Shown here: positions 4,197-52,231 of the stretch, in pieces
How the letters are laid out: each line of letters starts with the position of its first letter
Position numbering within the stretch: position 1 is the stretch's first letter
Assembly: GCA_004519485.1 (NCBI GenBank)
Contig: CP038116.1
Location: 434,001-498,000 of the forward strand
Direction of reading: 5' to 3'
DNA: 64,000 nt
DNA from: Nannochloropsis oceanica
Lineage: Eukaryota > Sar > Eustigmatophyceae > Eustigmatales > Monodopsidaceae
The notes under the pieces: model-generated
What the model was told of the DNA's origin: nothing
The model's database searches: none
What the model saw: only the letters and a program-made list of their open reading frames with translations
Translations under genes and position numbers: made by a program

Positions 4197-5086
4197 GATG
4201 TGATGACAAAGCTGCTGCTGGTGTCACCTCTGGTGCTGTTGCTGCTATTATCCTGGGTCTTTGGCCGCCTGTCTAGTGAGGAAAAGGGTGGAAAGGTGAG
4301 ACTGGGGTCCTGTGTAGTTAAAAGAACAAACCTACTTTTGGCCCCAAATCCTTCACACACGTCCCACATGCACCTTCTACTTCTAACTTAGATGAGACAC
4401 CCCGGATGTAAACTTGCCTGCCTACTGCTCCAGTGCTACCGATCCTGTGTTTGGAGAGGAGGCCTGTTGTGATGGAGTGGTGGAGAGGAGTGGATGGAAA
4501 ATTGGGGTCATGAGCAGTGGCCGCAGAAAGAAGTGAACGTCTTTTCGAGAAGCATTGTGAGAGGGGTAGAAAGCAGCGGATGGTGCGTATGGAGGCGAGC
4601 AAACTGAGCTCGCCGCAGACACTCAGAAATCCTCTAGATTGGGCAAATCTCTATGGTTTACAGGCCTGGATAGGCGGAGTGAGTCATCGTGATAGGAGAA
4701 ATGCGGGACTCCACCCTATGCTTCGGTATTGCTTGGCTGCCTGCCCGCCTGCTGATGCGACCGACCGCGAGTGGGTGATGGATGATGAATGAAGGCGAGC
4801 GATCTGCCGGAGGTGAAATTGACCCGATGAACTGGATCATCCAGGGACTCATACATTCAGTCTAGACAGGATTGTTACGTACCTCGTACCTATCGACGCT
4901 GAGGCCGTTCCTGCTAGCCTACAGCTACGTCAGTCTTGGGTCTGTGTTCGCCATCATCCACGCTCTCTCATCATTCCTCCGAGTCCTCGCTGTCATCGCC
5001 CATTCGATTTGATGCAAGCTCCCTTCCCGCCATCATACGCTGTACGCAGATAGCTCAGGCCCGGATAGGGCGCTGCTGCTACCGAC
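4197..5086. promoter_or_regulatory. Divergent intergenic region, DnaJ / PIG-M
   Basis: About 0.9 kb between two divergently transcribed genes, so it should hold both promoters and 5' UTRs. The short open frames inside are neither conserved-looking nor supported by splice sites. I see no clear TATA element. Confidence 0.4.
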
Positions 5087-6484
5087 ATGGCACACACTCC
5101 TCCTCCCGCTTCTCCAAATGCTTCGCCCATCTTCGTTTTTGCTTTGGCCCTGGCAGTTCGTGTGGGGATGTTGGGCGTGGGAGCCTGGATGGACCGGGCG
5201 TCGAGCAGCGTCAAGTACACAGACATTGACTACCTGGTCTTCAGTGACGCGGCACGTTTTTTATACCAAGGCGGGTCGCCTTACGAGCGGGACACATATC
5301 GATACACGCCGTTTTTGGCTTGTCTTATGCTGCCCAACCTGTGGCTGCACCCGGCCTGGGGAAAGGTTCTCTTCATCGCGTCTGACTTGGTTGTGGGTTT
5401 GCTGGTCATGCGCATTTCTGCTTGGACAACGCATTACCCATCATTATTAATTGCATCAGCAGCAAAACGGGGGAGCGTCCCTCCAACCGCCGCCTCTTGG
5501 TACTCCCATCCCCTTCTCCACGCTGCCCTCTGGCTCCTCAACCCCCTCGTCATCAACTTTTCCACCCGGGGCAGCGCAGATACTCTGGTCAGTGCGTTAG
5601 TACTTGCCACCGTCCTCTTCGTCCAACAAAATCGACCTGTCCTGGCGGGAGTTTTCCATGGAGCAGCGGTGCATTTTAAATTGTACCCTATTGTCTTCTC
5701 CATTTCCTTTCTGGCGGCCTTGTCCTCGGCTCGGCCTGCAGAAGTAGATGAGGAAGATAGGAAAACCCGCCTGTTCTGGCGTCGCCTTAAAATGGTTATC
5801 GATAAGGAATGCATTCTCTTTACAGTTGTAAGTGCAATGACCTTCCTTTTTCTCACCCTCCTTGCCTTCCTCCTCTACGGCCAGTCCTTCCTCCAACACG
5901 GCCTTCTTTACCACCTCACCCGTACCGACAACCGCCACAATTTTTCCCCGTGGTTCTACGGAATCTACCTAGACTTTGAAAGCGAAACTAGTCGGCACCT
6001 CCTCGGTCTAGCAGCCTTTCTCCCTCAAGTCCTCCTCCTTGCCTACACCTCCTTCCTCCTCGGCCCCCGCGACCTCCCCTTCTGCATCGCAATCCAAACC
6101 ATGATTTTTGTCGCCTTCAACAAAGTCTGCACCGCTCAATACTTCGCCTGGTACTTCTCCATCCTTCCCGCTGCGGGTCCCACTTTAGCCTCTCTCCCTT
6201 CTTCCCATCCTCCTTACCTCCCTCTTATCTTGGCGGGGGCATGGCTTGCGGCGGTAGGGGGGTGGTTGTGGTGTGCATATCAGCTTGAGTTTCTGGGGGA
6301 GAATACATTCTTCTGGACGTGGATCATGTCGATTACTTTTTTGGGGGTGAATGTCGCGGTGCTTGCATGGTTGCTGGAAATGTGGGGGAAAGGGCAACGG
6401 GAAAGGTGGGGGGAATATGGGAGGAAGGGGAGGAGGGGGGAGGGGCTAAGAGAGAGGAAAGCACGAAGGTTAGGGTGGACTTAA
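5087..6484 (+). CDS. PIGM: GPI mannosyltransferase 1 (PIG-M/Gpi14 family)
   Basis: Single exon, 465 residues, close to the family's usual length (about 400-430). The first transmembrane segment is followed by the lumenal catalytic DxD-type motif (YTDIDYLVFSDA, Asp46 and Asp48), then the family block YRYTPFLACLMLPN. At least eight further hydrophobic segments follow, with HFKLYPIVFSISFL and FYGIYLDFESE as recognisable PIG-M blocks. Enzyme role: adds the first mannose from dolichol-phosphate-mannose to GlcN-PI in the ER lumen during GPI-anchor synthesis. The C-terminus is basic. The start ATG is the first in frame after the divergent region. Confidence 0.92.
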   Translation: MAHTPPPASPNASPIFVFALALAVRVGMLGVGAWMDRASSSVKYTDIDYLVFSDAARFLYQGGSPYERDTYRYTPFLACLMLPNLWLHPAWGKVLFIASDLVVGLLVMRISAWTTHYPSLLIASAAKRGSVPPTAASWYSHPLLHAALWLLNPLVINFSTRGSADTLVSALVLATVLFVQQNRPVLAGVFHGAAVHFKLYPIVFSISFLAALSSARPAEVDEEDRKTRLFWRRLKMVIDKECILFTVVSAMTFLFLTLLAFLLYGQSFLQHGLLYHLTRTDNRHNFSPWFYGIYLDFESETSRHLLGLAAFLPQVLLLAYTSFLLGPRDLPFCIAIQTMIFVAFNKVCTAQYFAWYFSILPAAGPTLASLPSSHPPYLPLILAGAWLAAVGGWLWCAYQLEFLGENTFFWTWIMSITFLGVNVAVLAWLLEMWGKGQRERWGEYGRKGRRGEGLRERKARRLGWT

Positions 6485-17426: not shown

Positions 17427-20400
17427 TTAGTTATTCTTCCTCCGCGACATCATCACCATTCCGAACACTGCCAACGCCACCACCGTGCTTCCCATCGCCA
17501 CAAGCACCACACTTCCTGCTCCCCCTCTTCCTCCCTTCCCTCCACTTCCCACTCCACTGCTCCTCCTGGACTTTGGTCGCCTTCTCTTAATCAATGTCAC
17601 CTTCAACACCGTTAATCTAGCCTCCGCCGCAAAGGCTAACATCTCTTCCAATCCTTCGTCGGTATCCACGGTTATCACATCCTTCTGCTCATCCACATAT
17701 GTCCACGCCCGTTGCGCCGTTGGGACATCCATCGCCTTCCCCACCGCCTCAATCGCCACTTCGAACGACTCCGTCGGGACCGTCACAGTCTTGGTCGCCC
17801 CATCATCTCCCACGACTTTCAACCGGAAATGAGGCCCTTCCACACTACTACTCCCATTCCTCGACCGCGGAGTCGGGACAATTACCATCGATGACGCCGC
17901 TCCCCCCAACATCGACGGCGGTGCTCCTCCTGGTGATGTCAGCACGTGGAGGTGGTGCTGTGCTTCTCCTCCTGCAAGGACCGACGCGCTCTCTAGGTCT
18001 TCGTGGTCTGCAGGATGTGCCTGCATATGTCGCTGCTCGTCGGGGTCATACCCCCCACCCCTTACAGTTGACCTCGCCGTTAACACACTCCCAGGAAACC
18101 GCAACTGCCGTGACGGGGCATGAGAGCTTAAGTCAGACGCCGACGACTCATCCTCGTAATCGTCCCTTCCAGCTTGAGCCCAGAATTTGCGCCCCCCATC
18201 TTCCTTCCCACAGACCACATGCACAATCTCCATAACATCCACTAGGCCCACCAAGCTCCCATCCCGGCTATCCGTCACGGGCAAGTGCAGATATTGATTC
18301 TCGCGCATCATGTACAAAGCTTCCAATACTGAGGCCTCCGCTTCGATCGTATCAGGCTTCGGAGTCATCACGCTCGAAACGGCCGTAAAATCAGGAGAGA
18401 GCTCCTGCGAGACCACGCGTCCCAGCATGTCTTTGGGTGTAAAGATCCCGACCAGGCTCCCGTCGTCGTCGACGACTAAGGCAGCCTTCCGACAGCGGCT
18501 CATGGTCTCAGCGGCTGTCCGTACATTAACAGTAGCGCGAACGACATTAGCAGTGGGCCCCTGCTGAGCTAGCAAGGTGCGGAGGGAGGGGTTGCAGTCC
18601 TTACCAGGCTCCGACTCCTCCTGCAGCAGCTGCATCAGGCGCAAGAGCGCGCCTTGCCCACCTTGGGCGATGCCAGCAGAAGCAGCAGCAAGAGAGGAAG
18701 CGGCCCTCTCCTCCTTGCGCTCCAGACGGGTGATTGCGTCGCTCAAGCACTTGGCAATGTCCAACAGCCCCGCCACGTGCCCTTGCGGGCCAATAACGGG
18801 GAGGTGGCGGAAACGACCTTTCACCATGGTGGTCAATGCATCGAGGCTATCGCTATCATGTTGCACCGACTTGGGGTTCTCGGTCATGACGGCGCTGATG
18901 GGCGTTTCAGCTTCTCCCTTGTATTGAGCAATCACCCGACGGGTCACATCATTATCAGTCAAAATACCCAAAACTTTCCCAGCCCTCGACGTGATAAGCG
19001 CGGCATCCGTCCGCCTCACAACCATGGCTTTCACTACCTCCGTGACCGACATCGAGCTATCCACCACAAGCGGGTTACGGGGACGTAACTTGGAAACAGG
19101 TCGAAAGGAGGAGTTCTTCCTCCCTACACCTCGAGCCATCGGAGGAGGCATGCGCCCCATCCCCGAATTGCCACTGCGCGCCGATCCCGCATCCGACTGC
19201 GAGTCCCAGCCATCGTCACCCTCTCCCCCCATGGTCGAAGCCCAGAAAGAGCGCCCGCCATCGTCCTTGCCCGTCAGCTTGCTCAGACTTTGCACAATCT
19301 CCATAGCACTCAACAAGCCCAAAGCGCGGCCTGTCCCCTCCTCCACCACAGGAAGGTTCAGAAAGTGCCCGTCGCGCATCGTGTACAAGGCGTCGAGCAA
19401 TGACATATCAGGCGTGACCGAAGCAGGCTGCGGGGTCATAACAGACGCCAGGGTTGTTTCCTCGGGCGACAAACCCTTCGCAACCACCCTCCCCAGCACG
19501 TCCTTAAATGTCACCAGCCCCAGCAGTCGCCCTTCCTCGCCAACGACCAAGCAAGCCTTCCGCGCTGTTGCCATGTCCTTGGACGCGGCCAGGACACTTG
19601 TATCTCCCGTCAGCATTGCTGTTGCTTCTGCGCCTGCCAAAATCTCCTCCACAGTCGGCAGCACGCTTTCCCCCTCTTGCCCACCCCCATTTGCCGAAAG
19701 CAGAGTCAGCAACGTCGATACCAATGCGGCCTGGTTCTTGCTCTTTCCACTGCGTCCTGCTAAAGCCATGGCCATCGAGGCAGCTTCTAAGGTCTTATCC
19801 GCCTTGCCACTTGACTGTTTTTCCCGCCTGTCCTCCATCTTCTCCAACCGCGTAATGGCATCGTTCAAGCACTTGGCAATGTCTAAACACCCTACAACAG
19901 CATCTCCGCCATCCAACACCGGCAAATGCCTAAAACGCCCCTTGACCATCACCGTCAAGGCGTCCAAACAATCATCCTCTAACGACACCGTGGTAGGGTT
20001 AGCCGTCATCACGTCTGCGCCCAGCGTCTCCTCACTGGAAAGTTCGTTTGCCACCACTCTTCTCGTCACGTCGGTATCGGTCAGAATCCCGCTCAATGCT
20101 CCATCTTTCCCTGTAAGTAAGACCGCCGCAGCCCGCCTTTCAACCATCACCCGCGCAATGGCCGCCACACTCGTCGTTGCCGCCAGCACCAAAGGCTTAT
20201 CCGGCCGCAGCTTAGACACAGGACGAGTCTTAGGCTGCTGCTTTTGACGGTGCCCCTTGCGCGAAATTGCACCACGCAAGGAACCAGCTTCCGACTGCGA
20301 GTCCCAGCCATCGTCACCCTCTCCCCCCATGGTCGAAGCCCAGAAAGAGCGCCCGCCATCGTCCTTGCCCGTCAGCTTGCTCAGACTTTGCACAATCTCC

Positions 20401-23400
20401 ATAGCACTCAACAAGCCCAAAGCGCGGCCTGTCCCCTCCTCCACCACAGGAAGGTTCAGAAAGTGCCCGTCGCGCATCGTGTACAAGGCGTCGAGCAATG
20501 ACATATCAGGCGTGACCGAAGCAGGCTGCGGGGTCATTACAGACGCCAGGGTTGTTTCCTCGGGCGACAAACCCTTCGCAACCACCCTCCCCAGCACGTC
20601 CTTAAATGTCACCAGCCCCAGCAGTCGCCCTTCCTCGCCAACGACCAAGCAAGCCTTCCGCGCTGTTGCCATGTCCTTGGACGCGGCCAGGACACTTGTA
20701 TCTCCCGTCAGCATTGCTGTTGCTTCTGCGCCTGCCAAAATCTCCTCCACAGTCGGCAGCACGCTTTCCCCCTCTTGCCCACCCCCATTTGCCGAAAGCA
20801 GAGTCAGCAACGTCGATACCAATGCGGCCTGGTTCTTGCTCTTTCCACTGCGTCCTGCTAAAGCCATGGCCATCGAGGCAGCTTCTAAGGTCTTATCCGC
20901 CTTGCCACTTGACTGTTTTTCCCGCCTGTCCTCCATCTTCTCCAACCGCGTAATGGCATCGTTCAAGCACTTGGCAATGTCTAAACACCCTACAACAGCA
21001 TCTCCGCCATCCAACACCGGCAAATGCCTAAAACGCCCCTTGACCATCACCGTCAAGGCGTCCAAACAATCATCCTCTAACGACACCGTGGTAGGGTTAG
21101 CCGTCATCACGTCTGCGCCCAGCGTCTCCTCACTGGAAAGTTCGTTTGCCACCACTCTTCTCGTCACGTCGGTATCGGTCATAATCCCGCTCAATGCTCC
21201 ATCTTTCCCCGTCAGTAAGACCGCCGCAGCCCGCCTTTCAACCATCACCCGCGCAATGGCCGCCACACTCGTCGTTGCCGCCAGCACCAAAGGCTTATCC
21301 GGCCGCAGCTTAGACACAGGACGGCTCGGAGCTTGTGCCCCCGCCTGCTGCTGCTGCTGCTGCTGCCATGCCCCGCCCTTGCGAGCCGAGCCAATGCTGC
21401 GCATAGAGCCCGCATCCGACTGCGAGTCCCAGCCATCGTCACCCTCCACGCCCATGGTCGAAGCCCAGAAAGAGCGCCCGCCATCGTCCTTGCCCGTCAG
21501 CTTGCTCAGACTTTGCACAATCTCCATAGCACTCAACATGCCTAAGGCCTTCCCCGTATGGGAATCAACGACAGGCAAATTTAAAAAGTGCCCGTCGCGC
21601 ATCGTGTATAGCGCATCCAACAAGGACATATCCGGCGTAACACTGGCAGGCTGCGGAGTCATCACCGCCGCAAGTGTTGTCTCCTCGGGCGAGAGACCCT
21701 TGGCAACCACCCGCCCCAGCACGTCCTTGAATGTCACCAGCCCCATCAGCTCCCCCTTCCCATCCACAACCAAACAAGCCTTGCGCGACGCCGCCATCTC
21801 CTTACTCGCCGCCTGAACACTCGTCTCCCCCGATAGCAATGCCGCTGCATGCGAGTCGCCCATCATTTCCTCGACATTCGGCAAGGCGCTAGCATCCTGC
21901 CCCGCCGCCCCACCGCTGGCTGTTAGCAGTGCTAGCAACGTCGATACCAATGCGGCCTGGTTCTTGCCCTTTCCACTGCGCCCTGCCAAAGCCATGGCTA
22001 TGTTTGCTGCCTCCAACTGCTTGTCGGCCTTGCCACTCGACTGCTTCTCCCGCCTGTCCTCCATCTTCTCCAACCGCGTGATGGCATCGTTCAAGCACTT
22101 GGCAATGTCCAAACAACCCACCACCGCATCCCCCGAGTCAAGCACAGGAAGGTGGCGGAAGCTCCCCCGCACCATAAGGGTCAAGGCGTCCAAACAATCA
22201 TCATCCAATGACACCGTAGTAGGGTTAGCCGTCATCACATCCGCAGCAAGCGTCGCCTCGGGTGACAAATCTACGGCCACCACTCTTCTCGTCACGTCGG
22301 TATCGGTCAGAATCCCGCTAAGTGTCCCATCTTTCCCCGTAAGTAAGACCGCCGCAGCCCGCCTTTCAACCATCACCCGCGCAACGGCCGCCACACTCGT
22401 CGTCACCGCCAAGACCAAGGGCTTGTCGGGGCGCAGTTTGGAGACGGGACGTGTCTGTTGAGCTTTGCCACTACTTGACTTCGTGGGTGTGGAGAAATTC
22501 AAGGCCGAGGTTTTCTTGCGGTGATTTCGGGCAGGAGAAATTGAGGATTTGGAAGGAGAGAAGGTGCTACTGGCGATAGAGCGAGCAGGGGAGGAGATGG
22601 TGGGGGAAGAGAAAGGGGCGGTGATTCGTGTTGACGAGAAAACTTCCACAACTTCAAGTGGTGCTACGGGTAGGGCAGCACGCAGCACACTCAATTCAGC
22701 CTGCGTCCGATCTACCTCCTTTTGCACAGGCTCACAAGCGACAAAGTTTTTGGCGGCCAGAAGCTTGTCCATCTCTGTCTTGAGCTCCTTCAGTCGCGCC
22801 TCGAGCTGGGCCAAAGTTGGAATGGTAGAGAGCTCCCACTCCAACGCGTCAAGCTCCTTTTGCAGACCATCACATACCGCAAATTCTTTGGCAGCCAGTC
22901 GCTCGGCAAGATTCTTCTTAAGAGCAACGATCTCTGACTCAAGATCCGGGCGGCTCTTCTTACTCTTTTTCCCGCCAATGGGAGACTTCTGTTTATCATC
23001 CACCCCCGTCGACGCCGCTGCTTCCTGTGCCTCCTTTTTCTCCTGCATCTTGAGCCCTTCCAACGCCACTTTCGCCTCTTCCACCTGCTGCTGCAACCGA
23101 TCACACTCAGTGTACTTCCGATTCTGCGCCGCCTGCTTCACAGCTGCCTCCAACTCTTCGATCTCCACTTCCTTCTCCGCCGCCGTCGGGAAGACCTTCC
23201 TCAGCCCCACCAAACGCGTCACTTCCCCCTGCGCCTTCTGACAGGCTGCAAAGTTCTTTTCAGCCTCGAGGCGCACTAACTCCTGCTCTGCCACCTTGAT
23301 CGCACCGTCCAATTCTCCTCTTGAAGCGAATCCCGTAGCTTCGGCCGCAGAGGGCTCTTTGGCATTAAGCACATCCCGGAACTTGATTTCCATCACCTTC

Positions 23401-26400
23401 ACTTGCAGCTGGACCTCATCGCAAGCCTTGAAATTCTTTGCGCGAAAGTGCTCGTCAATCGTTGCTTGCAATGTCGAAATTTCATCCAAGACCTCTTGGC
23501 GGGTAGGGAGGATCTTGCGGAGGTCAACCAATGTCTGAAGCTCTGCCTGCAGCTTGGAGCATGCCGTATAGTTCTTTCTCCGAGACATTTCCTCAATCGC
23601 TACTTCCACCTCTCCTACCTTCGCTTCCAGGCTAGCACGGGTGTAAGGTAGGGGTTCACGGGCTTCACGTACCAGGACAAGGGCAGCCTCCACCATTTTG
23701 ATCTTGTCCGCCACCGCCAAACACTCATCGAAAGCCTTCCGCTCCTCCGCCTCCTTCGCCGCGGCCTCCAATTCGATCACAGTGCGAATTAAGGTATTTT
23801 CGTCCATCTTGTTATAAGGATTGGTCAACCGTCGATACTCCTGCACGCACAAAAACCGGCGAGCCTCCGCCTGGAACAAAATTATCCCTCTTCGCTGGAT
23901 CACGAAAGCCCTTCGGGAAGACCGCATCCTCCACATTGCCTGTGTCGCCGACATCCCCCTCACCAGCGCTCGGAAGCGTTTTTGTGCCATGTACCGTCGC
24001 AGCATCGCCTGCAACTGTACCGCCGCCCTCTCCCTTCTGACGCGCGTCCACCCCCTTTGTATGGTCCGCGCTCCCAACTTCACTCTCAGTTCGAGCAAGC
24101 GTGCAAGTTTTTCGGCCATACTTTTTCGCATGAACACCTTGCTCACCCCCATCTGCCACTCTCGCTCATCCACACTCAGCATCTTGCTCAATTTTTCTAT
24201 CAGATCCGGCAAGCTACGGCACCCAGGTACCAATCTTGCGAATTGCTTGTACATCATCGAGTGCGTCTCCCTCAATGCGTATCCCTGTTGCCTAATTCGA
24301 ATCGCCTCCATCATGCCTGCATACTTTAACTGCCGCAAGATCTCAAGCGTGTGAAAGTGCCCTGCCAGCTTCTCGTGATTCGGCTTGATACATCTCACGT
24401 ACCTCGGGGTCGTCATATCCAACGTCTCCACCAAGGTGGCGAGACTGGTCCGGAACTGCGACGACAAAGACGCCTCCCTCAACCTCGATCCTCCCCCTCC
24501 CCTCTTCTTCCTCCCTCCCCCTCCCCCACCACTACTACGCTCTTCCAAATGCTTAACATCCAAGAAGATGTCGTCACGAATCAAGGGATCAGTGCTACTC
24601 AATGCCAGTGCCCGGACATTCTGATGCAAATTCTCCACATTTCGCTCTACAAACCCATCCACGTGGTACAGAACCATCCCCGCGTAATGCTTTACCCCGA
24701 AACACACATCCGAATGCAACCGTGGCTTGACATACGCCTCCGTCTTGCCCGCAAACGTCGTGTTCAACGCCGACAAAAAGCGCCCGTCGGCATTACTCGG
24801 CCCGCCACCGACACTTTTGACATCATCAAGTATATTAAACAAACAAGGGGCTCCCGCTTTTCCTCCCCCAACCGTCGCAGGCGTCGCCGTTCCACCCTCT
24901 CCTCTTCCTCCCGTGGGCATCGTACTGGACTCGCGGTAGTAGCGGCTGTCAAGGAGGGCGAGACAGGGTTGGTTGTCATTGAAGGAGACGTAGCTCCAGT
25001 CGATCCCTTCTCGATCATAATCCTCTTGCTCCATCTCGAAGATGTGCCGGTTGAATTGGTTTTGCAAGGTCTCGTTGGCAAAGTTGATCAAGAGCTGCTC
25101 GAAGGAATTGTGCTCGAATGCCTCAAAACCATAAATGTCCAGCACGCCCCTGATTGTAAAAAGATATGATGGAGCGAGGGAGGGTGGGAGGGAGTGTAAG
25201 TGGTTGGATTTGTGTCGACTGGGCAAGCACCAACATCGAAACAGAATACAGATCATCACGCCCACTCCCTCCCTCCTCTCTGGCCCCCTCCCCCCTCCTC
25301 CTTCTCTCAACCCGTCCCATTTTTGATTACATGAATCCCCAGCACTTCTCCGCCGCGATGGTGACATTCAACTTCCGCACCAACCAATTAAAAACGCACG
25401 AATACACCGTCTTCGCCAGGGTATCGCGCTTATCCGCCGCCTCCTCCGCATCATTTGGCTTTACCAGCGTCTCGTCCTTCCTCGTCGTGATCTGCTTTGA
25501 GCAAAATGTTTTGGACATCTCCCCGGCATCCAATCTTAGGAATCGTGCCGCCAATTCCAAATGCTCCTGAGTCTTCGGGTCCAGCACCGACCCTCCCTCC
25601 CCTGCGTCCAAGAAATCCACGTTCCCCAAATGCAAGACCGCAGCCACTAGCTCAAGCATCGTGCGCTGCAGCTTGGCATCTAGCCCTATTGCCGCCATAC
25701 ACTCCATTGTGACTTTAAAATCGCCCTCATCGCTTTTTCCCGCAATATCAGTGCAATGGCCGTGTGTCAAGTACCTGAAAGCCCCCGTCCCCTCCTTCTG
25801 ATCCAGACACAAATCCGCCAATATCTGCTTGTCCCCCCCCCGAATCAACTGGTAAAACACGTGGAAATTCCTCTCCCCCTCCGACTGCCGCACAATTCTT
25901 GTCTTTTCCAACAAGTAGTTCGTGATCTCCGCTCCCACAATCCGCCCTGTGGTCCCAAACTGAATCTTGACGTACTTCCCGAACCTCGAGCTGTTATCAT
26001 TCATCAGCGTCTTGGCATTCCCGAAGCTCTCAAGGAACGGATTCGTCGACAACACTTTCTTTTCCAGCTCTCCTACTTCCAAATGAGGCCCCGCTGCGGC
26101 TATGGCTTTTCCTGAAATCGGTGATGTGGCCGCCGCTCCCTCCCTCCCTCCTCCCCCCCCGGACATCGTGACCTTGTAGTGGGTGATCCTGGCAAGGTAT
26201 TGCATGATGATCTTCATCGCCTCTGTTTTCCCTGCGCCACTTTCGCCCGAAATAATGATGGATTGATTTGCTGGGATCTTGCTGCCGTCGTTGATAAATG
26301 CCACGTAGGATGCATCCGCTACCTTGAAGAGGTGTGGGGGCAACTGCTCTCTCTCGCAGGTGTGGTAGTGGATCATGGCTTGCTCGGAGTAGAGCCCATG

Positions 26401-26949
26401 GTTCCATTTGTAAGGATTGATGCTTATGAGGATGGGCCCGACGAACGTATACACCTCGTCGCGGGTGTAGCGAGAACGGAGGGTCTCCAGGAGGGACATT
26501 TCTAGAGCAAGAAAGGAAGGACGGAGACGGGGGAGGGAAGATATAAGCCAGGCTGACTCTCCGATCCTACATGGAGAAAATGAAAGTGGATAGAACCTAT
26601 ATCGACTTACCCACCATTTCCTGCCTGCCTCCTCCCTACCTGAGAAATCGTTCAAATCCAGGATATCGGGCACCCCCTGCTTGGCTTCGGCCTTGACCGT
26701 CAACAACCCCCCGGCACTCAAGCGATGCACTTGGTCCATCTCATCCCGCACCACCACGACATCCTCATTGGGGAATTCCTGAACGACTTTGACAGGCTTG
26801 TAAAGCATCTCGGCTTGCTTTGCCTCGTCGACGGTGCTGCTGGACAGGGTGACGGGTTTGCCATCTTTTCCCACGAGCTTGCTGGGATCGAAGTAGACCT
26901 CGCGGACAACCCTACCCGTAAGCACGTCCATGTTGCCGGAAGCGGGCAT
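17427..26949 (-). CDS. Giant myosin with UVR-like, 16 CBS, PB1 and membrane-anchor tail
   Basis: Exons 26640-26949, 25331-26501 and 17427-25149; 3,067 residues, phases 1 and 2. Motor: SH3-like N-terminus; P-loop GESGAGKT (189-196); switch I NDNSSRFGKY (about 271); switch II DIYGFE (498-503); actin-binding and converter parts to about 850 (TPRYVRCIKPN). About four IQ motifs follow (850-935). Residues 948-1311 hold seven roughly 45-residue helical hairpins with a K-x-F/Y-x-x-C core (KNYTACSKLQ, KNFKACDEVQ, KNFAACQKAQ, KYTECDRLQQ and so on), like UVR motifs. Four CBS units start at 1394, 1770, 2136 and 2510, each with four CBS motifs (RPVSKLRPDKPLV start, GGRSFWAS end). PB1 spans about 2934-3018, and a tail anchor (VVLVAMGSTVVALAVFGMVM) ends the protein. 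Plant CBSCBSPB proteins have one such unit plus PB1 and anchor. CBS pairs commonly bind adenine nucleotides, so an energy-responsive membrane motor is an inference. The 17427-25149 exon is uninterrupted, which argues against an annotation artefact. Confidence 0.93.
19192..20225 (-). repeat. CBS repeat copy (C-terminal of the near-identical pair)
   Basis: This 1,034-base stretch inside the myosin exon matches 20290-21323 at a fixed offset of 1,098 bases (366 codons). I see about four differing bases (one near 19439, one in the CAGAATCCCG stretch, two in the CCCTGTAAG stretch). It covers most of one four-CBS unit. The first unit (21412-22451) and the last (18190-19103) are clearly more diverged. 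Confidence 0.9.
20290..21323 (-). repeat. CBS repeat copy (N-terminal of the near-identical pair)
   Basis: Partner of 19192-20225. The near-identity begins abruptly at TCCGACTGC and ends at AGGACG. The linkers outside differ: a polyQ/Ala linker on one side of this copy, and a Lys/Gln-rich linker (RKGHRQKQQPKT) between the copies. Confidence 0.9.
25242..25263 (-). other. Intronic echo of the myosin exon 3 start
   Basis: In intron 2 the coding strand reads GGGCGTGATGATCTGTATTC, against GGGCGTGCTGGACATTTATG at the true exon start (25149). The first seven bases are identical and nine of the first ten agree. Similarity fades after that. Confidence 0.45.
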
Positions 26950-34197: not shown

Positions 34198-35757
34198 CTA
34201 CAAATTCCACATCTCCACCCTCACAGGCATGGCCATTAAGTCTCTCAAACCCTCTGCGGGCGTCCTCTTTCCCTCCAAAATCTCCTTTACCCCATATATA
34301 ATCGGAAACTCAAGCTCCCTCCTGTAAGCCCGATTGGTCTTCTCAATCAATTGTACCAGAGAAAAGGCCGTGGCGTGTCCCTCCGCCACCTCTGTTGACG
34401 ACCCTAATATATCCTCCAACTTCTCTCCTTTCCCCAGCCTTACTCCTAAATTCCGATTTCTGCTCAAGGGGCCAAAGCACGTCCCGAACGTATCCCCTAC
34501 CCCGGAGAGTCCCGTCAAGGTGGTGGGCCGTGCGCCTAGGCTCAAGGCCAGGCGCTGCATCTCGTTGCATCCTCTGGTCACCAAAGCAGCCATTGCATTG
34601 GTGCCCAGCCCCAGGCCCTCACACATCCCAGCGGCAATGGCAATCACGTTCTTGACAGCTCCCCCTACCTCGACACCCACCACGTCGGTGGAGGTGAAAA
34701 CACGGAAGTAGTTGCAGCCCATGATGTCGCATATCTCGTTGGCGAGCGCCTCGCTCTCACTGGCGGCCACGACAGCAGTGACCAGCCCCAAGGCGATTTC
34801 ACGCGCAAAGGAGGGCCCAGACAGGTAGGCAGTCTCGCGGTTTGGGCCAAGAGTCTCTAGAAGGATGTCTTGCATCATGCAGAGGGTGCCGGTTTCTATG
34901 CCCTGTAAAGGAGGAGGACAAGAGGGGAGGGAGGGAGGGAGGATGAGGTTTAGACGGCCCACAAAAAGGAACGAATAACAGAGAGAGGAAAACCAACAAA
35001 GATAGCTCACCTTGCTCGTCGAGATAATCGGCGTGTTCTTTGGGACATGCGGCGCAATGTCCTCCAAAAACTTTCTAGAATACTGCACCGGTACCGCATG
35101 AATAATGAAGGACGCATCATTTAAGGCCTCCTCTGGAATGGTAGTCGCGCGAATCGTGGGAGCCAATGAGATATCCGAAAGATAGGTAGGGTGACGATGA
35201 TGCAAATTGATGTGCTCGGCCACGTCTTCTTTCCGCACCAGGATAGTGACTGGAATGCTTTTCTTCCCCAAGACAGAGGCAAGGGCCAGGCCGAAAGACC
35301 CACCGCCGAGCACGGCAAAGCGGACGGGGTAGGGCAAGGGACGGGTAGAACGACTTCTTCGCGCAGAAGCTAGCATGGTAGTCTGAGCAGGTGTTGAAGT
35401 GAAAGAAGGGGGAATGGGAGAGTGGGAAGGGGGGAGGTTAGAGGGCTGGGTAGATAGCCCCCCCGAGGGTGCATTCAAAAGAGACAAGACAAGACGATGT
35501 TAATTTTTTCTTACCCCTCTCCCTTTGTGTTCCTCTTTCCATACCTGTCCCTGTGTACGTCGGGTGCCCCTCGAAATCCTGCTCCCAAAGCTCCCACTTC
35601 CAGCCCCCCCAACAAACGCCGTCGCGGCATGAGCCTGGGAGATGAATTGCGGACACATCCAGCTCAACAAGGCAACCAGTGAGAGGAAACCCAACGTGAA
35701 TGTGGCATATTGCGGCAAGGTTATTGCATTGACTCTTCTGGTGGTTGAGGGTGTCAT
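34198..35757 (-). CDS. NAD(P)-dependent glycerol-3-phosphate dehydrogenase, plastid-targeted
   Basis: Exons 35545-35757, 35011-35382 and 34198-34902, all phase 0; 429 residues. Exon 1 is a presequence of 71 residues: a hydrophobic segment (YATFTLGFLSLVALLSWM) ending in AHAATAFVGG, an ASAFAP-like site with Phe, followed by a basic Ser/Gly/Arg stretch. That predicts the plastid stroma. The catalytic part has the Rossmann loop VLGGGSFGLALASVLG (Gly97-Gly102), the substrate loop GPSFAREIALG, the catalytic Lys in VGGAVKNVIAIAAGMCEG, and TLTGLSGVGDTFGTC. Reaction: DHAP + NAD(P)H to sn-glycerol-3-phosphate, which feeds glycerolipid and oil synthesis. An in-frame ATG early in exon 2 (TTMLASARR) could give a cytosolic form. 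Confidence 0.93.
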
Positions 35758-43310: not shown

Positions 43311-45916
43311 TCACTGGGGGGAGAAGGGCTCGGGGAGGCTCAAGAGGTGGTCGCGCCTTTGCAGACACTGCTCGTGGAACTCCTCTGTGCAAATACAAAG
43401 GTCGTCATGTGTGGATAGAGTGGAGGAAGCATAAGTACGGAATCATGGTAGCTCGTGATTCCCATTGACTGGACCAACCCTTTTTTCACGTCCGCTTGTA
43501 CGTGCTCCTCCCTCCCTCCCTCTCTCCCTCTCCTCTTCCCCTCCCACCCCCGCACGTACCCAAGCGTCGCTTCACCTCCTCTTTGTGATCCGCCAAAGCG
43601 TGCAATGCGCCCATAATGCATTCTAGGATCACCTTGCTGACCCCCTCGTGTTCCTCTCTCTCCAGCGCCAGCTCGGCCTGCAGCTGGGTCAGTCGTTGCT
43701 GGTTCCGCGCGGCCCGGCTCTCGAGCTCCACCACCACCTGGCTGCGGAGGTGAAGGACTTGCTCCTCCACCCTTTCAACGTCTGCTGACTGCAAAAGGGG
43801 GCGAAAGAGAAAAGTGGAAAAGGGAGAGTGGATGGTGAGAGAGTGGTAAAGCATGCGCTTGAAAAGCAACAACTCAAATATGAAGGCTGACACGACTTGA
43901 CATGGTACCGACTCTACACCCCTGCCTCGCTCCTTCCCTCGCTCCCCTTACCTTCTCTGCCATGTTCGCCTCCATACGCGCCTTCTCCGACCTGTACCCC
44001 TCCTCCTGTTTCTTCACTTTCCCCTCCATCACCTCGAACGCAGCCACGGCCTCCGCCACCTCCTCCTCGCTCTTGGCCTCCTCATCAAGCATTTTCAACA
44101 CCGAAGTACGCGCCTCGTGCACTTTGTCCAGAATGACATTTTTAATCTGACCGAGGCTCGGGCGAATCACCCCCTTAATGTCCAAGCCAATCAAATCCTG
44201 GGGCTCCGCGGAGGCCGAGACCGCTCCTTTGCTCACACTCATCTCATACTGGATCCCATTGCTATTCCTTGCCGTGATGGGGATCAATTGTAAACTTGCC
44301 GCTTTGCCATTGAAGGTCTGCGCGGCCGTTTCCAAATCCACCACCGCGCGACTCAACTCCATCTCGGCCTCCCACAGGGCCTTTTGCATTTTCCCCTTGT
44401 GCTCCCTCGCCTTTCCCAATGCCTCGTCCAGCCGTACCCGTTCCTGCTGCATCCGTGCCACGTCCTCCGGGCTTAATTCCTGCCCTGCCACCACCTGCTT
44501 GAGCTCGGCCGTCTCGGTACGCACCATTTCCAGCGAACGGTACAGCTCCGCCAGCTCCCCCTCCCTCTTCTCCACCTTAGCGGCCAACCCCTCCCGGTGC
44601 GCAGTCAGCTGTTCAATCAACGTGCGAAACTTGCCCAAATCACTCTCGTAGTCCGCCCTTCGCTGTCGCAACCCCGGCAACGCTGCATGCCGCGTTCGGC
44701 ACACCTGCGCCTCTGCCTGCATCTGGGCAATGTTGGCTTCCAAGACGGCACACTGAGCCTCCACCTCTCCACACCGCCCCTCAAACGACCCTACCAAGCC
44801 ATCCTCTAGCTTCTCGTACAACTCGTCGTCTCCGTCCAAGAACGCCTTGTATGCCTTCCCCAGATACTCGAAGAGCGCCTTCTCGTCCGCCCGTTCAAAG
44901 TCATCCACGCTGCTGCTGCTGCCACTGCTGCCGGCCAAGGCCGCCTGGTTCGCCGCGTCATTCTGGACCTCCTCGTCATAGGTCAACAGCTCCACCATCC
45001 AAGTAATACTCGCCAAGAGCGTCGGCCACGTATGCATTGTCCCCACTGCCTGCATGCTTGCCTTCGAAATCGGGAAAGGATAGTGCATCGCCTTGAAAAA
45101 CTGGAGCACCTCCTCCTCCAGTTTCCCCGTGATTCGAAAATTCGCATCCACCTGCCTAAACAAAAAGGAGACGATATATGTGAAGTCTTTCGCAGTCGGC
45201 CTCTGCAATATCTTAGCACTGAACGGCTGGTCATAGTTGTGATCCGTCAGGTAGTTGATCAGCCCCCGAATGCTTGTTTGGATGTAGCTCTTGTCCGTGT
45301 TGGGTCTGGGGTCTTGCCGGGCATGAGAGCCGTAGGCAGTGCTTTTGCGACTGAGCCCCGTTGACGACTTCCGGGGGGGGGCATTGCTGTTGCGGAGCAT
45401 GGAGGAGGCGGTGGTGGAGGAGAAGGAAGTGCCGCTGGAGGCGGTGGACGAGGAGGAGGGGTGCAGAGAGAGACGGCCGCCCTGTAAGCGAGTCGATGTA
45501 GCGGGGAAGAGGGAGGGAAAGAGTGGTGTTTAGAAAATGGAAGTGGCATCTCCGCTCAGCTTGATTTAGATTGAGGGATGTGCACCCTTGCTGTGTAAGG
45601 GGATAACATATGCTCACATACAGGTGAGGAAAGTGGCTGGTCGTTCTGTGGCGCGGCCGCGGAAGACAAGGAAGATCTAGCCATGCGCCCCGCTCCCCAG
45701 AAACGATCTCCCTCCCGCTGCTGAGTCACATGCGCACACAACTCTCAACGTCTATATCCTCGTTTTCAGATGTACCTGTGGCTTGGCTTGCTTGTCAAAG
45801 TTGGGTCCCAAGGAGGTGCGCGAGACGCCACGGCTGGGCATGCCCATGCTCTGTCGCTGGTTGAAACCGCTGGAGGAGAGCGGCTCCAGGGTGCCCCGGC
45901 GCCGGCTCAACGCCAT
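43311..45916 (-). CDS. NDC80: Kinetochore protein NDC80/HEC1
   Basis: Exons 45776-45916, 43952-45481, 43560-43788 and 43311-43384; 657 residues, phases 0, 0 and 1, close to human HEC1 (642). The basic, Ser/Thr-rich N-terminal tail (MALSRRRGTLEPLSSSGF) is followed by the calponin-homology domain: DPRPNTDKSYIQTSIRGLI, DFTYIVSFLFRQVDANF, FPISKASMQAVGTMHTWP, SITWMVELL. Long coiled coil follows to the end (KVEKREGELAELYRSLE, ERVEEQVLHLRSQVV). NDC80 with NUF2, SPC24 and SPC25 links kinetochores to microtubules; the basic tail is an Aurora B target in other organisms. Its start lies 868 bases from the divergent kinesin start. Confidence 0.96.
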
Positions 45917-46784: not shown

Positions 46785-49700
46785 ATGGACGACCGCCGGG
46801 CCAGCACGTCCAGCGACCTGGGTGCCGCCGACGAGGAAGAGGACCACATCCGCGTCATATGCAGGTAGGGAAACAGTGCATGTGGGCAAAGACTTGGTGT
46901 CTGTTTGTACTGTGGCGAAGTGGATGTACGATTTGTCGGGGCTCATGTATGTGGGGTAAAAGATGGTGGATGAAAAGCTCGCTCCGCAGTTCCCATCCTC
47001 GATCGACGCCTGCACGCAGGCGGAGCGAAGTCGTCTCCCTTGTGTACCACTGTCGGCACCATTTTAGGATTTCCTCTCCTTCTGGCTAGGCATGCGTGCA
47101 AACATACGTAAAGACACTAAATTGTCAACTTGCCAATCCTCACGATCATCTCATCCTCTCTTCCTCTCCACCTCCGTACGGACCATCGCCACAAACCGCC
47201 CAGAGTCCGTCCCCCTCAAGTCCGCGAAGGCCGCAGCAGCGCCCTGGGTCTCCGCACTTGTCTCACGGTCAATGAAACCAGCAAAACTGTGACCTTGAAG
47301 CAAGCCTCGGGCCCGAAAGTCTTTACCTTTGACCACTCCATCTCTGAAAATGCATCGCAAGAATCTGTCTTTCACCTTGCCGGGAAGCCTGCCACCCGCG
47401 CTTGTATCCAAGGGTATAATGGAACAGTCTTTTGTTACGGCCAGACGGGGAGGTAAGTAGATTAAAGCTGCAGTGGACGAGAGGGGGGGAGGAAGGGTGT
47501 TTGTAGTGTTTCGCGGTTTTTGGTATCTCTTCACCATTTCACTTTGTCCTTCCCTCCAATTCCTCTTACCCCCCTTGTCACATCCTTGCACAGTGGGAAG
47601 ACGTACACGATGTTTGGGCCGAATGTAGACGCATGCGATAGCGGGGATGATCAGAGGGGCCTAGTCCCGAGAGTGCTTGAGTACTTGTTCGCGCATGTGG
47701 CAAGGGAGGAGAGGAGGAATGGCGGGGCGGTCACCCACTTGTGCCGGTGTTCGTTTTATGAGATTTTTAATGAGCGTGTTTTTGATTTGCTCGACTCGGA
47801 CTCCGGCTGCTCACTTGGAGGATTGCAGACGAGGGAAGACATGAAGAAGGGGGTGTATGTGGAGGGATTGACGGAGGAGGCGGTGGACTCCCCCCATCAG
47901 GCTTATGAAGTCCTGACGCGAGGGTACCGCAATCGGCATGTGGGCGAGACGGCGATGAATCGGTAGGGATGGAGGGACGGAGAACAGGATGTCAACATCT
48001 ATGTGTTCAATCGGACATTCTCTTCTCTGCCATGGACTGATCCCACTCTCCCTCCGCCCCTTCCTCCCCTCCTCTTCTTGCCTCACGCACAGAGAATCTT
48101 CTCGTTCTCACGCCGTGTTTACAGTCATCCTCGAGTCTCGGGAAGTAGACGCCGTGGACGGGATCACCCGCTCTCGGTGCGCCTCATTTAACCTCGTCGA
48201 TCTGGCAGGCTCCGAGCGGCAGGGACAGACAGGTAGCCGGGGAGGGTTTGGGTGAAGGAGTGGTGAGGGTTGGAGAGGGGGGGGTTGGAAAGAAGCATTC
48301 CCGCGGGTCTATGCGCTTCTTTTGTTTTGGTCGATGTGGCACGCTCCGGGCGGCAAGAGGTGATCGGTATGCATGTGACGAATGTGCCATGGGCGTCACT
48401 TTGAGGCCGTCTGTCCTATTTGAATATAGACTAGTTGTACGGCGGGTGTTCGTCGCACCCTTTCACTTACCCACCTTCCCTTCCTCCCTCCATCTCTGCC
48501 CACTTTCCTCCCTTCCTAGGCGCCACCGGGGATCGGCTGAAGGAGGCCAGCAGCATCAACAAGTCCTTATCTGCATTGGGGAATGTCATTAACGCCCTGG
48601 TCTCGGGTCGCACCCGTTATGTGCCCTATCGGGACTCGCGCCTGACATTCTTGCTGCGGTACGTGCTTTAATCCCCCTATCCTCCATTCTTCCCTCCATC
48701 CCTTCTCCCCTTGCTTGGGCATCTGAGCCGGTATGTCTTAAGGACAAGAATTTCACCTCGCTTCCTTCACCCATCCCTCCCTCCCTCCTACCCTTCAGAG
48801 ACTCCCTCGGAGGAAACGCCAAGACCTTCCTGGTGGCTTGCACGTCTCCCAACGACGAAAATTTCGCCGAGACGCTTTCAACACTTAAGTTTGCGCAGCG
48901 GGCTAAGATGGTGCGTCGCTTTTTCATGTATCGTCGTATAAGGGGGTGGGAAGGTGTGCGGGGGTAACAAAGATAAGAAGGAAAAGAGGGACGAACACAA
49001 GCACCGTCGCATCGACCGAGACTCCCGCCTTTCCTCCCTTCCTCCCTCCCTTTCTCGCGGGCGCCCAGGCCAACGACAAAGTCGTCATCATCGAGAGCAC
49101 CAGCCCTGTCACTGCTTACCCTCCTTCCCACCCTCCCTCCCTCCCCATTTCCAACCCTGTTTCCCCAGATTAAAAACAAGGCCATCGTCAACGAAAACAC
49201 CAGCGGTACTGTTGAGGCCCTCCAAAAGCAGCTCCGAACCCTCCGCCAAGAGCTCCTTACCGCCCGGGCCGTCATGTCCTCCACCGGCACCTCCCTCCCT
49301 CCTTCCCTCCAGTCTTTCTCCTCCGAGGACTCCTCCCCCTCTGTCGCCTATGCAGCCGCTGTGCGTCGCACGGAAAAGCTGTTGCAGGAGGCGTTGGAGA
49401 GGAGTCTGTACATGGAGCAAGCGAGGGATCTAGCCGAGAAAATGGCAGGCAAAGTGCAAGCCACTGTGGACCGACTCGAACAAAACCTCCTCCACGAGAA
49501 AATGGTGAGGAAAATGAAGGAATCCCAGATCCAACGACTCATGAAAAAAACTGCTGCCTCTGCTGCTGCGGGCACTACTGAAGAGGAACTAAGGAGTGAG
49601 ATTGAGGCCTTGAGGAAGGAGATGGAGCAGGTACCGGCAGAGGCGATCAAATGGCGGGCAGCAGCGGAAAATGCCCAGGCGCAGCTTGACGCCCTACTGG

Positions 49701-51991
49701 ACGAGAAGCAGGGTTTAGGGATGTGGGTGGAAGATAGGGAGAAGACATTTGCGACGGCCCTAGAGGAACAATTAAAGGCTATTCTCGTGGAAAAGGCGGA
49801 GCTTGAAGCCAAGTTGTATGGAGGGGGAGGGGGGGGGGAGGGAGGGAGGGAGGGAGGGAGCGGCGGGAGGAGGTTGAGTGATGGGGGAATGAGTCGGTTG
49901 AGAGAGGCGGAGGTGAGAACTGTGCATTTGGAGGACGAGCTGCTGCAGGCAACGAGGCAAGCGGAGGAGAGAGATGCGGCCCTGGCGGAGGTAAGGGCTC
50001 AAGCTGCGCAGGCTGTGAGTGCCCAAAGTCAGTTGCAGGTGAAATTAACACTTGTGGAACGGAAGATGGAGGGGTTGGAGGGAGAAAATAAAGTGTTAAA
50101 GGCCGATCGGGATTTTAACATGGCACTTTTGCAAGAGAGGATAGATACCACCCAGAGCAGTGAGAGTCAGGCGCAGGCAGCGAAGCAGGACGTGGAGGTA
50201 CAGCTTGCATCGGCGTGTAAAGATAATGCAATCCTTCTGCAGCGACTCAGGGAGACTACCACAGAGGCTGATACCGTCGCTGCGCGTCAGCAAGCCACGG
50301 AGGCGTCGCTTCAGGTGTTGACGAAAGAGGTGGAGCAAGAGCTTCGGCCTCGTTTGCTGACGTTGGAGAAGGAGCTGAATGAAAGCACGGCGGCGCTTGC
50401 GGCGTGCCAGCAGACTCTGCAAGAGAAGGGAGAGGAGATGGGGCGCGCAGTGGACGACCACGACAAAGCATTTGCAGCAATAACAGAGAAGCAAGCACTG
50501 GAGATCCAACAGCTCCGCACGACAATCGATGAGGAAGCACGGCGGGTACAAACCCTTCGCGCCGAGAAAGAAGAAGTGGCTTCCCTTTTTTCCAACCTTC
50601 AAGAAGAACACGACACCCTCACACAGCTTCTCGAATTCACCCAAGGCAAAAACACTGAGATGGAGGCAGCAATGGCGACCCTGCAAGCCAAAACCCAAGC
50701 ATTGGGCAAGGAAAAGACACAGTTGGAAAGCGCCTGGGAGGTTGCCAACGCGCAAATCTGCGAATTGGAATCTCAATTGGACAAGGCAGGCGGTGATGCC
50801 GCGGCCGCAGCAGAAGAGAGGCAGGCCCTCCGTGAGTTAGAAGGAGTCAATCAAACTTTGCTCCTGGAAAAATTACAGCTCCAGGAGACGGCTGAAGGCC
50901 TTCGCAGCGACCTTGGTCTTGCCAAGACTGCCCAGGAGCAGGCAGGGAAAGAGGCCGGGAGGGCTGCGCAGGTATTGACGGATTTAGGAGAGCAGGTGGG
51001 GAGGCTGAGGGGAGAGCTGGCGGAGGCTCAAGCGAAGGAGCAAGCAGCGAAGGCAGAGGCCGAGGGCTTGACTCAGGAGAGGGAGGATTTGTTGGCCCGG
51101 GCAAATGAGGCGGAAGAGAGCCAGGCGGAAATGGGGGAGGAGATGATGGCTTATTTGGACGAAATCACGATGTTGAAGACGCGGCTGCACGAGGGGGAGA
51201 GAGCGCAGGGAGAGAAGGTCCGAGAGATGGAGCTGGCGTTGAAAGCGATGGAGAAGGAGGTGGGGGAGAAGGGGGCGCAGTTGGTGGTCTTGGAGGCGGA
51301 GGTAGTTGCGTTGCGAAAGCAACTGGAGGAGCAGCAGGCTGCTGACTATGACGCCAAGGCTGCCATGGAGGCGGAGCTTGCGAGGAAGCTGCAAATGGCC
51401 GAGTGGGAACATACTCAAGCTATGGCGAGGGTGCAACAGGAGCTGGCGGATGCAGCGGTGAGGGGAGCGGAAGCGGCAAGGTTTAAGGCGGTCTTGGGGA
51501 GCAGTCAAGCAGAATTGGAGATGCTGAAAGTGTCGGTGAAGGAGAAGGAGGGTATGCTGGTGGTGATGAGGATGGAAAAGGAAGCGGCGGAGGAACAAGG
51601 GAGAAACCTAGGAAAGCAGCTGGGAGAGGCGTTGGCGAGGGAGAGGGATGCGGAAGATTGGAAGGAGGAGAAAATCCGGTGGGAGGCGGAGGTGGCTCGG
51701 GCAAGAGAGATGGAGAAGGAGGCGTTCGAGAGGTGTGAGATGGTGGAACAGGAGAATGTAAAGATGGGGAGGGAGGTGGAGGGGTTGCAGGTGGAGTTGG
51801 AAGAGTTGAAAAGTGTGAACGTAAAACTTGTAGGGCATGCGAATAGTCGACAGAAGATCCAGTTGCACAGTAAACTGAAGGAGGAACTGATGGAGTTGTC
51901 GAGGAGATTCAAGGTCTTGGAGGAGGAGAATTACTCTTTGAAGGTCAAGGTGTCTGGGGAAGGAGAGAGGGAGGGAGAGACCAAGGCGCCA

Positions 51992-52033
<42 letters not shown>

Positions 52034-52231
52034 AAGAGCACCAATAATAGCAACAGTAGCTCTGGTGAGCCAGTAGCCTTGTCCAATGTGACCAATACTG
52101 GTGCTCGGCGTGCGGCCCGTAAGAAAGTAGCTGGAGCATCAGCAGCTGGAGGAGCAGCGGCGGTGGCGAAGAAGAAAGCAGTGGGCCTGGAAGCACTGGC
52201 AGCGGAGGATTCCGAGGAAGTGGATGCGTAA
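46785..52231 (+). CDS. Kinesin-12-like (KIF15/POK-type) motor with long coiled coil
   Basis: Seven exons: 46785-46864, 47204-47452, 47594-47962, 48093-48232, 48520-48658, 48799-48910 and 49169-52231; 1,383 residues, all phases consistent. N-terminal motor: HIRVICRVRPPQ, P-loop [13 protein letters not shown] (about 107-119), [12 protein letters not shown] (switch I, about 231), [10 protein letters not shown] (switch II, about 266), [20 protein letters not shown], and [23 protein letters not shown]. The last block is typical of the kinesin-12 neck. About 1,000 residues of coiled coil follow, then a Ser run and a basic tail ([12 protein letters not shown]). Kinesin-12 motors act on spindle or division-plane microtubules. 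Introns 4 and 6 hold copies of adjacent coding sequence. Confidence 0.94.
48327..48358 (+). other. Intronic echo of kinesin exon 4 (switch II)
   Basis: In intron 4 the stretch TTGGTCGATGTGGCACGCTC and on (48327-48358) matches exon 4 at 48193-48224 in 25 of 32 positions without a gap. It reads [10 protein letters not shown] against [17 protein letters not shown] follows shortly after, as GGGGATCGG does at the start of exon 5, so the echo may span the spliced junction. Confidence 0.8.
49069..49107 (+). other. Intronic echo / decoy copy of kinesin exon 7 start
   Basis: Exactly 100 bases before the true exon 7 start lies CCCAG followed by codons reading [12 protein letters not shown], aligned codon by codon with [12 protein letters not shown]. 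25 of 39 bases agree, including the identical ACCAGC. The frame is the one exon 6 would enter, but it ends at a stop inside the true exon, so its use would truncate the kinesin after the motor. Confidence 0.65.
49830..49866 (+). repeat. GGGA/GGGGGA repeat inside the kinesin coding sequence
   Basis: G-rich repeat encoding [11 protein letters not shown]-type residues within the coiled-coil region. It is the same unit seen in RAD21, ELMO, AKR and coronin exons. Confidence 0.85.

Follow-up and report, generated by a model that had tools for sequence, protein, structure and literature searches.

Does a single gene of the alga Nannochloropsis oceanica join a myosin motor to an array of CBS domains, a PB1 domain and a membrane anchor, and would such a protein be of a new kind? 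The question was raised by a sequence-only reading of the window, i.e., the stretch of 64,000 nucleotides analyzed here (contig CP038116.1, positions 434,001 to 498,000), which described one gene of 3,067 codons and knew of no protein that combines myosin and CBSCBSPB parts. Our analyses showed that the fusion is real but represents a known class of myosins, catalogued since 2007, and not a new kind of protein.

Gene structure and domain composition

The gene occupies positions 17427..26949 of CP038116.1 in window numbering on the minus strand and has three exons, the last of which runs from 25149 to 17427 (Table 1). In a splice test, GT-AG joining of the three exons gave a single frame that encodes 3,067 aa and has one stop, at its end, which bears out both the coordinates and the length of the sequence-only reading. 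We infer splicing from the sequence; the exon junctions are further supported by a relative, P0004, that aligns near full-length to the N. oceanica protein with 77% identity. The third exon lies inside an open frame of 2,646 aa that spans the motor end and the CBS array without interruption. Pfam matches in this single frame place motor, CBS array and PB1 domain, together with the C-terminal anchor, in one gene, as had been claimed.

Table 1. Positions of the gene, its parts and neighboring genes in the window
Feature	Position	Strand	Basis
Whole gene, class-XXIX myosin	17427..26949	minus	Splice test; near full-length relative P0004; motor clade
Exon 1, N-terminal region as far as motor start	26640..26949	minus	Splice test; inferred intron 26639-26502
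Exon 2, motor N-terminal half including P-loop and switch I	25331..26501	minus	Pfam Myosin_head 2.9e-113; motifs
Inferred intron after exon 2	25330-25150	minus	
Motor C-terminal half with switch II and RCIKPN	24117..25149	minus	Pfam Myosin_head; motifs; profile match ends 24126
Neck, degenerate IQ motifs, residues ~839-917	23880..24116	minus	Limits by eye; relaxed pattern
Seven helical hairpins, residues 940-1319	22674..23813	minus	Cys at same place in 7/7
4-CBS unit 1, residues 1394-1723	21462..22451	minus	CBS matches
4-CBS unit 2, residues 1770-2098	20337..21323	minus	CBS matches; near-identical to unit 3
4-CBS unit 3, residues 2136-2464	19239..20225	minus	CBS matches; near-identical to unit 2
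4-CBS unit 4, residues 2510-2818, most divergent of the four	18177..19103	minus	CBS matches
PB1 domain	17592..17825	minus	Pfam PF00564
C-terminal tail anchor, hydrophobic residues 3041-3059 and short basic end	17430..17510	minus	Hydropathy peak
PIG-M mannosyltransferase	5069-6484		Pfam match; ordinary eukaryotic gene
Glycerol-3-phosphate dehydrogenase	34198-35499		Pfam match; ordinary eukaryotic gene
Ndc80	43874-45529		Pfam match; ordinary eukaryotic gene
Homoserine dehydrogenase	60726-62114		Pfam match; ordinary eukaryotic gene

Judged by its sequence, the myosin motor is complete and its ATP-site motifs are intact. Pfam Myosin_head matched both gene pieces (E 2.9e-113 over profile positions 12-359, and 4e-73 over 366-435 and 440-679), and the motifs GESGAGKT (P-loop), NDNSSRFGK (switch I) and DIYGFE (switch II) can all be read in the sequence. 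The IQ motifs of the neck are degenerate: a relaxed pattern matched at residues 873, 882 and 896, two of these matches overlapping, while the strict pattern gave none and Pfam IQ none at E up to 0.01.

The neck is followed by seven helical hairpins, which we found to be real repeats with a Cys in 7/7 and a Cys-to-Cys spacing of 46 to 77 residues. Their number agrees with the sequence-only reading, but its label "UVR-like" has to be dropped. The UVR profile PF02151 had no match in the hairpins at E up to 10 and, in a genome search, none in the gene, and we rejected a UVR identity on this basis. The region gave a weak match to the coiled-coil family DUF7310, under the cut-off of that family. When 13 proteins were compared, the hairpin Cys was kept in the three oomycetes shown and often replaced by Ala in diatoms. 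As the Cys is hence not universal, we set aside a redox or metal role.

In the tail, 16 stretches matched Pfam CBS (E 1.8e-118) and form four 4-CBS units, in line with the sixteen motifs counted before. PB1 (PF00564) scored 21.4 bits in the long frame, under the cut-off of 23.6 bits; on the C-terminal piece alone it exceeded this cut-off with 24.7 bits, and it reached 27.3 bits in the genome search, so that the earlier assignment of this domain holds. The 19-residue window of highest hydropathy in the whole protein (value 2.46) covers residues 3041-3059 and so stops 8 residues short of the C-terminus. A C-terminal transmembrane anchor is predicted from this maximum, as it had been in the sequence-only reading.

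Of the surroundings, 10 neighboring frames were scanned with Pfam; matches to ordinary eukaryotic genes are listed in Table 1. An open frame of 1,084 aa at 48977-52231 (plus strand) matched no Pfam family at E up to 0.001.

Class-XXIX myosins and their relatives

Class-XXIX myosins were defined in stramenopiles by Odronitz and Kollmar in 2007; according to that paper (PMC2375034), their motor is joined to three IQ motifs and a short coiled coil, and the tail holds as many as 18 CBS domains together with PB1 and a transmembrane domain at the C-terminus. This printed definition matches our protein domain by domain, with the IQ motifs and the coiled coil being putative here, and the motor of our protein sits in one clade with other CBS-tailed myosins, two of which are named myosin 29. 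We therefore assign the N. oceanica gene product with very high confidence to the class-XXIX myosins (Myo29) of this stramenopile alga. The motor, an array of many CBS domains, PB1, the predicted C-terminal transmembrane domain and an origin in stramenopiles are shared with the class; the relaxed IQ matches of the neck and the hairpins may correspond to its IQ motifs and short coiled-coil regions. Nothing essential differs from the class description, and the particulars here are an array of 16 CBS domains, IQ motifs in degenerate form and a stalk whose seven hairpins each have a Cys. A 2024 motor tree (PMC11420354, accessible portion) includes class 29 among five diatom myosin classes and states that no diatom myosin had been functionally characterized as of that paper. 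Our literature search, which mostly covered papers outside subscription and hence is not proof of absence, found no functional study of a class-XXIX myosin. By term search, the accessible main texts of PMC5583752 and PMC3942036 do not mention CBS. CBS proteins with a C-terminal PB1 are named as a family in Chromista in PMC7051960, with no link to myosin in the portion available.

How widespread is this architecture? A relatives search with the long frame, in which scoring was confined to the 8,000 candidates with most words in common, returned 106 proteins. We built a 4-CBS profile from the four units of the window and ran it on 107 sequences including the window's own. A 4-CBS unit was found in 87 of the 107, and a motor was detected by phmmer in 53 of these 87 CBS-array proteins, with the window protein included in both counts. 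Besides the window protein, 52 proteins have both motor and CBS array. Together with the 2007 class description (PMC2375034), they overturn the statement of the sequence-only reading that no known protein joins these parts. Species-named records with both parts came from diatoms, oomycetes, brown algae and Tribonema, and those named myosin 29 belong to Tribonema minus and Plasmopara halstedii. One MMETSP record, P0041, carries motor, hairpins, three 4-CBS units and a tail anchor in a single protein; its precomputed Pfam domains do not include PB1. Its place in the tree beside Thalassiosira points to a diatom. We take the MMETSP records, P0041 among them, to be transcriptome assemblies, and from this it would follow that the fusion is expressed in a relative.

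In the remaining 34 of the 87 CBS-array proteins, no motor was detected. Many of them are metagenome predictions, 24 of the 34 start with Met, and they may include separate tail genes as well as split or truncated predictions. These motor-less proteins are what one would cite for an assembly join or annotation error that merged a myosin gene with a separate CBS-PB1 gene, and the Ser/Pro-rich linker before the CBS array could conceal the boundary. However, the uninterrupted 2,646-aa frame bridges motor end and array, the 52 other proteins that have both parts come from many genera, so that the fusion recurs in independent assemblies, and include the transcriptome record, and the class is already in print (PMC2375034). 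We hence consider a join of this kind extremely improbable and reject it; the same 52 proteins dispose of wrong splicing, which the sequence-only reading had dismissed because of the uninterrupted exon.

The motor tree comprised 71 aligned motors, 47 of them CBS-tailed, after a coverage and span filter had excluded 6 of the 53. The 24 others were 15 vertebrate myosins X, four further proteins and five paralogues of the same genome, all of them fragmentary. All 47 CBS-tailed motors fell into one clade (FastTree 0.957; UFBoot 89, under the usual 95). The Aureococcus record P0105, which has no CBS, adjoins this clade, and the resulting group of 48 has UFBoot 99; the record may have lost its tail, come from a gene model that is too short or represent a motor of older origin. 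Because the relatives were found with a CBS-tailed myosin as query, non-CBS stramenopile myosins are under-sampled in this tree. Branches inside the CBS clade had low support (UFBoot 53 and 67); the exception was the group of the window protein, P0004 and P0070 (UFBoot 100).

Five further myosin loci lie in the same genome, on contigs C2, C4, C8, C10 and C24, that on C4 inside an open frame of 3,695 aa. For the C2, C4, C8 and C24 myosins, a genome-wide CBS search, limited to the 30 matches of its best candidates, gave no match closer than 100 kb; on C10, a CBS match lies ~7 kb upstream of the myosin. A tail search in the open reading frames around these loci, which partly covered the C4 and C8 tails and had the C10 tail side outside its stretch, gave nothing. 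Within these bounds, neither search supports a second CBS-tailed myosin in the genome.

Evolution and conserved sites of the CBS array

Units 2 and 3 differ at only 4 of 1,034 bases (20290-21323 versus 19192-20225, minus strand). The linkers beside them differ from each other and have only their first residues in common. Near-identical units flanked by dissimilar linkers suggest gene conversion that would be confined to the CBS body. Alternatively, one of the two could be a false duplication in the assembly, in which case the true gene would have three units like record P0003. Over 2,206 residues, this record differs from the window protein at 10, and the part missing from it is exactly one unit plus the linker between units 2 and 3 (366 aa), which would fit a false copy, as would the few bases that separate the two units. 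Yet the dissimilar linkers and the four distinguishing bases make a copied stretch unlikely, and the relative P0004 has four units. The three units of P0003 may equally well reflect copy-number variation or an assembly collapse of the near-identical kilobase. We thus regard a false duplication as quite improbable.

When units from 13 of the 87 array proteins were placed in a tree, many grouped within species (P0005, P0006, P0007 and P0018). Others grouped across species by position, i.e., the last unit of the window protein with that of P0004, and units of P0010 with units of P0022. From this mixed pattern it follows that some units have been inherited by position and that duplication or gene conversion has acted later. 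Array size also differs between species, from one to ~5 units, with some of the records truncated.

For residue counts, we scored the last position of the G-x-x-T-x-x-D motif in each CBS of 272 full-span units, which derive from 85 of the 87 array proteins and represent 258 distinct sequences, many of them close kin; partial and split unit matches, frequent in oomycetes, were excluded. The first, ribose-type Asp is invariant (CBS1, Asp in 272). CBS2 has Lys in 261 units and Arg in 10, CBS3 Asp in 233 and Glu in 37, and CBS4 is variable, with Asp in 179, Glu in 38 and Ser, Cys, Ala or others in the remainder. Hence 224 units read D-K-D and 195 D-K-D-(D/E), whereas the relaxed signature D-(K/R)-(D/E) holds for 269; all four units of the window protein read D-K-D-E. 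AMPK gamma binds ribose through the corresponding Asp residues and has Arg at its second site. This subunit likewise has four CBS per unit, and its D-R-D-D ribose signature resembles the D-K-D-(D/E) seen here; in contrast, it is not a motor tail and was not among the named matches, and a functional likeness is putative. The best structure matches by sequence were 3fhm and 4fry, CBS pairs that align to the two halves of unit 4. Both are presumably bacterial proteins, short (165 and 157 residues) and without motor or PB1.

The last unit, PB1 and anchor are homologous to plant CBSCBSPB proteins, a relationship already noted in the sequence-only reading, with 36-40% identity and 50-66% query coverage in plant-named rows. 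The tail search scored only the best 8,000 candidates, and we used the best 120 of 249 matching proteins, of which 53 were aligned with the window piece (54 rows). Among these rows from the best 120 of 249 matches, CBS1 Asp, CBS2 Lys and CBS3 Asp are kept in 52, 52 and 53 of 54, and D-K-D is present in 19/19 CBSCBSPB-like rows, 18 of them plant-named, with His at CBS4 in 16/19. Plant CBSCBSPB has been described as two CBS domains plus PB1 (PMC2694836, accessible text). The plant proteins resemble our tail in the order of CBS part and PB1, in a C-terminal hydrophobic stretch (18/19 rows) and in D-K-D, but in the rows examined they are ~485-550 aa long and have one 4-CBS unit and no motor. The N. 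oceanica protein, fused to a motor, is thus not itself a motor-less CBSCBSPB protein of the plant type. Phosphosites of Arabidopsis CBSCBSPB1 and CBSCBSPB4, plant relatives of the tail, appear in a table of a force-stimulation phosphoproteomics study (PMC13054138, accessible portion).

A tail anchor, scored as a hydrophobic 19-mer in the last 60 residues, was found in 80 of the 87 CBS-array proteins, and in 80/80 of these Lys and Arg outnumber Asp and Glu past the anchor. The seven anchor-negative proteins are P0018, P0036, P0038, P0065, P0066, P0068 and P0074; P0036 lies barely under the anchor threshold with a hydropathy of 1.58 and has the basic end. For a class already described, the invariance of the CBS1 Asp with its D-K-D-(D/E) signature, the basic-ended anchor and the near-identity of units 2 and 3 are modest new details.

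Conservation of D-(K/R)-(D/E) suggests a constrained ligand site, although the same residues may serve folding. The signature also suggests that the 4-CBS units may bind adenylates, and the energy-sensing role proposed in the sequence-only reading is compatible with the conserved residues. It is possible, if somewhat doubtful, that the array instead is mainly a structural spacer or oligomerization scaffold, or that it binds other ligands, e.g., S-adenosylmethionine or metals, and would be no energy sensor. Unit number varies by species, and the units of one species often resemble each other, as expected if length outweighs any particular site, and at CBS4 an acidic residue occurs in only 217/272 units. 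A mere spacer would be harder to reconcile with a CBS1 Asp kept in 272/272 and D-(K/R)-(D/E) in 269/272 units, or with D-K-D in every CBSCBSPB-like row.

A probable tail-anchored motor with a putative adenylate sensor

In our best reading, the protein would be an organelle myosin that is fixed to its membrane by the tail anchor and senses adenylates with its tail, a function proposed from sequence features. The tail anchor probably inserts in an organelle or endomembrane, and the motor would then draw that membrane along actin. PB1 may oligomerize or dock partners. Each 4-CBS unit could quite conceivably, though we put this forward tentatively, bind adenine nucleotides at CBS1 and CBS3, perhaps also at CBS4, and thereby tune the state of the motor, the stalk or PB1 to the energy of the cell.

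For the class as a whole, we may speculate that class-XXIX myosins are tail-anchored organelle motors under one to ~5 AMPK-gamma-like adenylate sensors, the units being held alike via gene conversion and the array length tuning how membrane transport is coupled to energy state; in this full form the proposal is rather unlikely. If nucleotide binding by the CBS units and localization of the tail proved positive, however, a motor wired directly to an energy sensor would be present in a major algal group.
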